DNA of 64,000 bases, from contig OX485807.1 in the NCBI GenBank assembly GCA_950295325.1, positions 5,582,501 through 5,646,500 of the forward strand. Direction: 5' to 3'. This DNA is from Polytrichum commune (Eukaryota > Streptophyta > Polytrichopsida > Polytrichales > Polytrichaceae). Shown here in pieces: positions 22,541 to 61,900 of the stretch (positions are counted from its first letter, which is position 1; every line of letters starts with the position of its first letter). A program made the translations under genes and the position numbers. The notes below the pieces were generated by a model that saw only the letters and a program-made list of their open reading frames with translations, made no database searches and was not told where the DNA came from.

Positions 22541-22820
22541 GATATGACTGTGGACAAACACTTGGTAAGATCAAAGGAACAAAGAAAACCAAATTATTTG
22601 AAGAGTCCTCGCATATATTGAGATTGCATGAAACAATCCCTAAAAACTACAAAGAGATTGCCAGCTATGAAGAAGTCATGGTCAACTTCAGTTTGTTGTG
22701 GGAGGCAATAACTTCCTCCGCTACTAATCCAACCCTAATGTATCTTGGAATGTCAAGTCTCCATTTGACACTCTTACACAAATTTGAGCACCTTTAGGAG
22801 TGCAACACCTTAGCATTGTT

Positions 22821-23390
22821 GAGTAATGTTATGATAAGACCCGTATACCTTTTAGGGATGCAACACCCTAGCACGGCTAAGTAATGTTATGATAAGACCC
22901 GTATACCTTTTAGGGATGCAACACCCTAGCACTACTGAGTAATGGTATGATAAGGCCCGTATACCTTTTAGGGATGCAACACCCTAGCACGGCTGAGTAA
23001 TGTTATGATAAGACCCGTATACCTTTTAGGGATGCAACATCCTAGCACGGTTGAGTAATGTTATGATAAGACCCGTATACCTTTTAGGGATGCAACACCC
23101 TAGCACAGCTGAGTAATGTTATGATAAGACCCATATACCTTTTAGGGATGTTGTTGCTGAGTAATGTTATAATAAGACCCGTATACCTTTTAGGGATGTT
23201 GTTGTTGAGTAATGTTATGATAAGACCCGTATACCTTTTAGGGATGTTGTTGTTGAGTAATGTTATGATAAGACCCGTATACCTTTTAGGGATGTTGTTG
23301 TTGAGTAATGTTATGATAAGACCCGTATACCTTTTAGGGATGTTGTTGCTGAGTAATGTTATGATAAGACCCGTATACCTTTTAGGGGTT
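22821..23390. repeat. Minisatellite with 58-bp units switching to 48-bp units
   Basis: Units start with GAGTAATGTTATGATAAGAC and share the 40-bp core ending CCTTTTAGGGATG. The starts at 22,821, 22,879, 22,937, 22,995, 23,053 and 23,111 are 58 apart. Most of these units end CAACACCCTAGCAC plus four bases; the sixth already carries the short ending. The starts at 23,159, 23,207, 23,255, 23,303 and 23,351 are 48 apart, and those units end TTGTTGTTG or TTGTTGCTG. Because 48 is a multiple of three, the second half stays open in frames on both strands. That is a side effect, not evidence of a protein. Confidence 0.95.
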
Positions 23391-57171: not shown

Positions 57172-57495
57172 ACATTCTTCATAATAGAAGTATATCATTC
57201 TCATTAGAAGTTATGGTATTTATAAACCCCAGCTCCAAAACAACTTCTTAAGATGGTGATACATACTTATTATACAACAAACATTCTTCATAATAGAAGT
57301 ATATCATTCTCATTAGAAGTTATGGTATTTATAAACCCCAGCTCCAAAACAACTTCTTAAGATGATGATACATACTTATCATACAACAAACATTCTTCAT
57401 AATAGAAGTATATCACTCTCATTAGAAGTTATGGTATTTATAAACCCCAGCTCCAAAACAACTTCTTAAGATGGTGATACATACTTATTATACAT
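57172..57495. repeat. Three 109-bp tandem copies inside the array
   Basis: ATTCTTCATAATAGAAGTAT starts at 57,174, 57,283 and 57,392. Copies are almost identical (differences such as ATTC/ACTC and GGTG/GATG), unlike the worn array around them. Single diverged relatives lie at about 59,163, 59,432 and 59,752. Confidence 0.95.
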
Positions 57496-59914: not shown

Positions 59915-60518
59915 GAAGGGGAGGAAGGGAGTGGCAAAAGCAAGGGCAAGGTAAAAAAAAAGGGAGGAGGGTGTCACCACGAGGTGGCTTTACAATTGGA
60001 GACAAGACCAGACAAGAGCAGGCTAGAGGTAGCGAGGAAGTTGAGAGAGAGAAAGAGAGAGAGAGAGAGGGCGAGACAGGGGGCCATCATCATCATCACT
60101 ACTTGTATCGCTCGCTCGCAGCGTCTGCCTCTCACTCGCCACTTACACAGCTTACTCACTCGCTTGTCTCGCCATCGCCATCGCCCCTGGACAGGACGAG
60201 GAAGAGGAGGGAAGTATGAGATGAGATGAGAAGAGAAGGGAGGAGGAGGAGGAGGATTAGTGCAGTTGCGGACTAGAAGTGCAAGGAAAGGCAAAGGAGG
60301 CAGGCAGGCAGGCAGGAGGCAGGCAGGCAGGGTGGGCAGAGGAGGAGTGGAGTCCTGATGAAGCAGCATTACTACGCGCACCGCACAAGCTATGTTTTGG
60401 TGCAATTGTGCTTCCTAGCGATCCTGCTCTGCCGCTTTCGTCGTCTTCTTCTTTAGCCCCAGGCACTGCGCTGCGGGATTCGTTTGCGGATCGCTCAGGG
60501 AGGGGGAGGGAGGAGGGA

Positions 60519-60522
60519 GGGA

Positions 60523-60583
<61 letters not shown>
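60519..60583 (+). promoter_or_regulatory. Long GA tract upstream of the CLE gene
   Basis: About 30 GA units with two single-base interruptions, 260-325 bp upstream of the CLE start codon. Shorter GA tracts lie at 60,043-60,069. Plant BBR/BPC (GAGA-binding) proteins bind such sequences in promoters and leaders. Whether this tract is transcribed or regulatory is inference. Confidence 0.4.
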
Positions 60584-60584
<1 letters not shown>

Positions 60585-60798
60585 CAGAGAGAGGGGAGCG
60601 TTAGGATTTTTACTGTGGATTGATTGTTTCGCAAGGGAAAGAGGCACAGAGAGTGTGTGTCTGCGTCTGTGGGTGCCTTTTGTGGTGTGTATTTTTTTTT
60701 TTTGTTTTTTGCGGAGAGCGGGGAGGAGAGGCGTGAGAGGGAATTGAGCTTCGGGTAGCGGAGTGAGAGCGGGGGAGCAATTCACGACGTGGCTTGGC

Positions 60799-60843: not shown

Positions 60844-61227
60844 ATGGCGAGGAGGGGGAGGGAACCGGGGTATAGGATTGTGGTGGTGATGGTGGTGTGT
60901 GTGTTGCTGGCCTTGATCGCGGTGGCGGAGTCCGCGCGCCCGTGGACAGCACGAGAGAGGGAGGTGGGGATGGCGTTGGGAGGGCAGGAGGAGAAACAGA
61001 GGAGAGGGTTGCTTGTGGAGGAGGAGGAGGATGCGGTGCCTCCATCTGGGACGATGGCACCAACGCAGGAGGAGGAGGCATCGCCGCGGAAGCCGCACAT
61101 TGAGTGCGACGAGGTCTCCTCGGATGTGGAGAGCTGCTCGCCCCCAGCACAGCGGCAGACGGATCGCAGCATGTGGGGAATGTCGAAGCGCTTGGTTCCC
61201 ACAGGCCCCAACCCGCTGCACAATTAA
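60844..61227 (+). CDS. CLE: CLE (CLAVATA3/ESR-related) peptide precursor
   Basis: 127-residue secreted precursor of a short extracellular signalling peptide read by leucine-rich-repeat receptor kinases of the CLV1/BAM group at the plasma membrane. Residues 1-31 form a signal peptide: basic start (MARRGREPGYR), a hydrophobic core of V, L, A and I, and a cleavage-like AESA followed by RPW. Residues 32-115 are a charged variable domain with an EEEE run and two Cys. The last 12 residues are RLVPTGPNPLHN, a textbook CLE motif directly before the stop. It is preceded by Lys, as many CLE motifs are by a basic residue. Pro4 and Pro7 are the usual hydroxylation sites. The frame is open upstream to a GTG at 60,763, but the first ATG is 60,844, in good context (GCGATGG). 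No intron is seen, as in many CLE genes. GC-rich, unlike the flanks. Receptor and role cannot be told from sequence. Confidence 0.93.
   Translation: MARRGREPGYRIVVVMVVCVLLALIAVAESARPWTAREREVGMALGGQEEKQRRGLLVEEEEDAVPPSGTMAPTQEEEASPRKPHIECDEVSSDVESCSPPAQRQTDRSMWGMSKRLVPTGPNPLHN
61189..61224 (+). other. Mature CLE dodecapeptide coding segment
   Basis: Encodes RLVPTGPNPLHN, the processed ligand. The ending PLHN and the VP-GPNP core place it with the A-type (CLV3-like) group, which typically restrains meristem or root growth, and not with the TDIF (B) type, which ends in ISN. It differs from the Arabidopsis CLE9/CLE10 peptide as I recall it only by Thr for Ser at position 5. Confidence 0.9.
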
Positions 61228-61900
61228 GTAAGCAAGCAAGCAAGGGCCGAATCCACCGTTCCCTCTCCGGAACTCCATCCCCAATCCCCAATCCCCACTG
61301 CTCCCATCAAAATTACTGCACAGGCTGCTCGCATACACTTATTAAAAAGGGAAAGGAAACGTGTGTTATTATTATGACGATGCTGATGATAATGCCTGGA
61401 CTCCCTTGTCCCGTTATGTTTGGTTTGGTGACGGGATGGCGATCCATGCGGGCCTCAAAACCTCCTTTTTCTCCTGCCATTCATAGCTGCAACCACTTGT
61501 GGAATTCGCAGTGGTTGCTTACCAAACCCAAATGTAGCTTATAGCGGTCACTGGTGTTAATGTAGTCTGTTGTGGTAAAACGTATGTAGTTGGCGGACAA
61601 ATGACAATGATGATGAGTGCGCCAGTGGTGAGATTGATAGATTGATTACGAAGAAGAAGAAGAAGAAGAAGAAGAAGAAGAAGCCGTGTGCTCGGTGGAT
61701 TGATTTTGATACCCTGTTCATTATCTGTACATACTTACTGGCGTTGCTCGATACACTTGAAATCTCTCTGTGGCTGAGGTCAATTTGCAACCGACCAAGA
61801 GCAGGACGTTGCTAATTTGGATTTCAAGAGAATTTCCTGTTGGGAGATGCTTCAACGTTGTTACAGTTCATCTTGAACTCGCTGCACTTGAAGTGAGGAG
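61228..61900 (+). other. Probable 3' untranslated region of the CLE gene
   Basis: Follows the stop with GTAAGCAAGCAAGCAAG. A (GAA)n run lies at 61,651-61,683. TGTACATA at 61,726-61,733 fits the Pumilio-protein consensus UGUANAUA. No convincing AATAAA signal was found, so the transcript end is unknown. Confidence 0.4.

Follow-up and report, generated by a model that had tools for sequence, protein, structure and literature searches.

The CLE family is defined by an N-terminal signal peptide, a non-conserved middle region and a conserved motif of 12–13 residues towards the C-terminus (PMC7552357, BMC Genomics 2020). In the moss Physcomitrium, nine PpCLEs encode four peptides and differ in promoter activity (New Phytologist 2025, PMC12138186), and the Physcomitrium CLEs diverge outside the motif (Whitewoods et al. 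2018, PMC6089843). CLE peptides dwarf the gametophores, Pprpk2 mutants do not show this response, and RPK2 reportedly mediates the action of the peptides (Whitewoods et al. 2018, PMC6089843). The motif RLVPTGPNPLHN is the peptide of PpCLE5 and PpCLE6 (PMC6089843, PMC12138186) and one of the ten CLE motifs that occur most often in plants (PMC7552357); RMVPTGPNPLHN is the peptide of PpCLE1-3, 8 and 9 (PMC12138186). 

The stretch of moss DNA analysed here (the window) spans 64,000 nucleotides, corresponding to bases 5582501-5646500 of contig C5 (52.9 Mb) in a genome of 407.8 Mb and 64 contigs. Near its end lies a gene that we read, with a probability of about 90%, as an ordinary moss gene for a CLE peptide hormone of the CLV3 type. 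Its features are as follows.

60844..61227, + strand: coding sequence of the CLE precursor, a single open frame of 127 aa plus stop.
60844..60927, + strand: residues 1-28, MARRGREPGYRIVVVMVVCVLLALIAVA, a putative signal peptide; mean hydropathy of 3.62 across 12 aa, with AVA before the likely cut.
60928..61188, + strand: variable pro-region, residues 29-115, with two Cys, read from the sequence; removal on processing expected.
61018-61029, + strand: EEEE in the pro-region, encoded as (GAG)4 in locally purine-rich DNA.
61189..61224, + strand: RLVPTGPNPLHN, the CLE motif and predicted mature peptide of 12 residues, with Pro at positions 4 and 7; adjoins the stop codon.
60513..60593, + strand: GA-rich tandem repeat upstream of the coding sequence, possibly promoter or 5' UTR.
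61341..61346, + strand: ATTAAA, a possible polyadenylation signal by visual resemblance.

The stop-free frame around the coding sequence opens at 60748, and the start ATG at 60844 is its first Met. No intron is required for the full frame, which ends with TAA at 61225-61227. The precursor begins with a basic stretch, followed by a strongly hydrophobic run ending in AVA, a charged region and RLVPTGPNPLHN as residues 116-127 of 127, in the place of the conserved C-terminal CLE motif. An N-terminal signal peptide is indicated by hydropathy (12-aa mean Kyte-Doolittle value of 3.62) and, by eye, by the AVA triplet, which we take to be the cut site under the AXA rule. The small size of the precursor (127 aa) and its non-conserved middle also follow the family pattern: searched in full length against its own genome, the protein matched only itself (1 match from 4 candidates, E<=0.001). 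A sequence-only reading had described an intact CLE gene consisting of signal peptide, variable domain and C-terminal motif. Its coordinates, frame and sequence proved exact, and the hydrophobic start, the pro-region and the motif directly at the stop were all recovered.

The motif is of the CLV3 type and not of the TDIF type (HEVPSGPNPISN kind). When the 12-mer was compared with published plant CLEs, as the sequence-only reading had proposed, it turned out to be identical to the predicted mature peptide of Physcomitrium patens PpCLE5 and PpCLE6, in a comparison that covered the mature peptide (PMC6089843, PMC12138186). Arabidopsis CLE9/CLE10, RLVPSGPNPLHN, differ from it by one substitution, with Ser in place of Thr at position 5, and that motif is reported only in eudicots (PMC7552357).

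The same reading had taken the variable domain with its EEEE run and two Cys as a sign that this may be an unannotated, lineage-specific member. We find no support for this view: the variable domain carries little weight, because precursors usually diverge outside the motif and because EEEE is simply four GAG codons in purine-rich DNA (purine fraction of 0.625 in the coding sequence versus 0.504 in window bases 1-58000). As the 12-mer is already published and precursors diverge outside it, the mature peptide is a known one and the divergent precursor is usual. The gene is an ordinary addition to the known CLE family.

Relatives of the precursor were also sought in other collections. The genome-contig search gave 53 pattern matches and one locus, L008, from a MAG titled Hyphomicrobiales. 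This apparent bacterial relative was rejected: the locus is a ribosomal-protein operon, and the seed search had picked up a chance word match. The word TDRSMWGMS is common to the CLE pro-region and the protein at L008:5025-5558, which is presumably ribosomal L6. No CLE precursor relative was found in viral contigs (10 pattern matches, 0 confirmed). A PDB sequence search with the precursor, which is probably disordered, returned nothing meaningful, with four matches up to E 10 and a best value of 0.44.

Chance was assessed separately for the motif and for the open frame. Three motif patterns (strict, relaxed and core) were run over the six frames of the window, and all three matched in the frame at 60844-61227 and nowhere else. 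Under the amino-acid composition and with independent positions, R.VP[ST]GPNPLH[NH] is expected 3.6e-9 times across all six window frames, which places the motif far outside chance. For the open frame, 3000 null sequences were generated from a first-order Markov model of the local 800 bp. The length of the frame by itself is weak evidence for the gene, because 135 of the 3000 null sequences contained a + strand ATG ORF of at least 127 aa. The DNA around the gene is purine- and GC-rich, and the minus strand opposite it holds even longer open frames, up to 242 aa. These observations would suit a chance open frame within GA-rich DNA, in which both strands happen to be open over long distances. 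Such a frame would nevertheless have to place the 12-mer just ahead of its stop codon and an equally hydrophobic stretch (12-aa mean of 3.62) near its start, a combination of length and hydrophobicity seen in 0 of the 3000 null sequences. Because the 12-mer adjoins the stop in the same frame as the hydrophobic start, we give the accidental frame practically no credence.

Codon usage was scored with a model trained on nine long frames from the same genome. All six frames at the CLE locus scored negative; the CLE frame was the best at −18.3, with the others ranging from −26.5 to −86.7. By the synonymous-codon score, the CLE frame reached −12.0 and two other frames +19. In the control, the true frame was found in 43 of 43 chunks, which were drawn from the training frames themselves. 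Codon scores were weak for two other CLE exons of this genome as well (correct frame versus next, −4.7 vs −5.0 and −2.5 vs −11.2), and codon usage is not counted in favour of the gene.

The window is gene-poor. It contains 26 stop-free frames of at least 110 aa. The Pfam scan, like the rest of the survey confined to single open frames, covered 20 of them and took the CLE frame from its start codon; the other six lie in repeats or low-complexity DNA. One of the 20 scanned frames matched Pfam at E<=0.001, namely DUF659 at 814-1398. No Pfam family was found at the cut-off for the CLE frame, for which Pfam may hold no model. ARAGORN (bacterial code) found no tRNA in the window, and no Rfam family reached its gathering threshold there. 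With this single Pfam match among 20 scanned frames, it is plausible, though short of proof, that the window has no other clear gene, as the sequence-only reading had it. The 10-kb flanks outside the window hold one stop-free frame of at least 110 aa on each side.

Several other elements of the window were observed along the way. The DUF659 frame (814-1398, + strand, 195 codons) matched with E 4.7e-8 and 33.3 bits, just under the Pfam cut-off of 34.7, and is probably a fragment of a transposon of the hAT type. Overlapping tandem arrays with 58-bp (6.2 copies) and 48-bp (5.8 copies) units sharing a common core occupy 22793-23387, and where the 48-bp array lies, both strands are free of stops, over 160 and 140 codons. 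At 57172-57494, a 109-bp unit is repeated three times with 97% matches.

A DNA search of the 408-Mb genome for a second copy of the CLE gene returned one match from one candidate, the gene itself. This result of the DNA and protein searches, the gene-poor surroundings including both flanks, and the lack of a clear codon-usage signal would all fit a recently silenced CLE gene whose sequence is intact and whose transcription has been lost. Against it stands the frame itself, unbroken and complete in start, motif and stop, and we regard recent silencing as quite improbable.

A third explanation is contamination by a non-plant organism that makes CLE mimics, for instance a nematode with such an effector; CLE-like effectors do exist in cyst nematodes (PMC5319780). 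This origin is extremely improbable, given that the gene sits in a contig of 52.9 Mb and that the genome contains many plant-type receptor kinase sequences. The latter were found by searching with a kinase segment of the CLV1/BAM type, which gave 150 scored matches from 872 candidates. All scored matches fell on C1-C7, and contigs C3-C7 measure 42-59 Mb each; therefore, the genome appears to comprise about seven large chromosomes. Together with the PpCLE-like peptides, this fits a moss with n=7, as in Polytrichales. The leading kinase-query matches were the following.

C6:10680401-10680583 (82%) and C6:10681291-10681488 (68%): CLV1/BAM-like candidate, two exons.
C5:22927101-22927289 (78%) and C5:22926604-22926798 (73%): CLV1/BAM-like candidate L027, two exons.
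C6:10.55 Mb (74% and 63%): further split kinase exons, L028.
C3:37.45 Mb (72% and 50%, one stop in the second piece): further split kinase exons.

The kinases at C6:10.55 Mb and C3:37.45 Mb are not far behind the two best candidates. The genes at C6:10.68 Mb and C5:22.93 Mb show, upstream of the kinase segment, LRRs and a transmembrane-like stretch followed by WKLTAF.RLDF, which we take to be a CLV1/BAM-like signature. The PDB comparison of pieces of L027 and L028 does not single out CLV1/BAM, because different kinds of LRR kinase ranked highest (GSO1 first in both, and also FLS2). Taken at the level of sequence, the genome carries candidates for CLV1/BAM-like receptor kinases.

If the window gene is an ordinary moss CLE gene, the behaviour of its product may be predicted from the family. 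The precursor would be secreted, and the pro-region would be cut off upstream of the R of the motif. As the motif runs right up to the stop, the 12-mer would need no C-terminal trimming; the prolines of the motif may be hydroxylated. The 12-mer would then be perceived by LRR receptor kinases of the CLV1/BAM or RPK2 type on neighbouring cells and may contribute to the control of cell division during 3D growth, a role that CLE peptides have in Physcomitrium.

The locus thus supplies one more intact gene with a PpCLE5/6-type peptide, in another moss, which is useful for annotation. It may also serve to ask whether L-type and M-type moss peptides differ in role. The general view of the CLE family is unchanged by it.

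A 21-residue C-terminal query found three places from three candidates in the genome, i.e., the window gene and two other CLE-motif frames.

C7:32216479-32216523: other CLE-motif frame, RMVPTGPNPLHN.
C4:11763632-11763673: other CLE-motif frame, RMVPTGPNPLHN.

Both share 11 of 12 motif residues with the window gene and show no clear similarity to it outside the motif, so that they meet it via the motif only. A signal-peptide-like start was not seen in the open frames of their loci, L003 and L004, and an upstream exon is therefore expected for each. With a query that joined RVVPSGPNPLHH to RMVPSGPNPLHN, these two frames were recovered and the window gene was missed. Because of this miss, the searches are not regarded as exhaustive, and the genome holds at least three CLE genes. 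Elsewhere in the genome, a TDIF-type query, run without a positive control, gave no match. It is conceivable, although we consider it unlikely, that the genome holds a very small CLE set of three genes for two peptides, in which the window precursor differs from both others outside the motif. If so, the CLAVATA pathway of a plant with 3D growth would operate on far fewer CLE genes than in Physcomitrium, which has nine, and genetics could tell the two peptides apart.

Over a stretch of 27 residues around the motif, the two other frames are 93% alike. In both loci (L003:1471-1557 and L004:1471-1557, − strand), RMVPTGPNPLHN is followed by the identical tail SNRSQVIFP and then a stop; this shared ending may point to a recent duplication, or the tail may be conserved.
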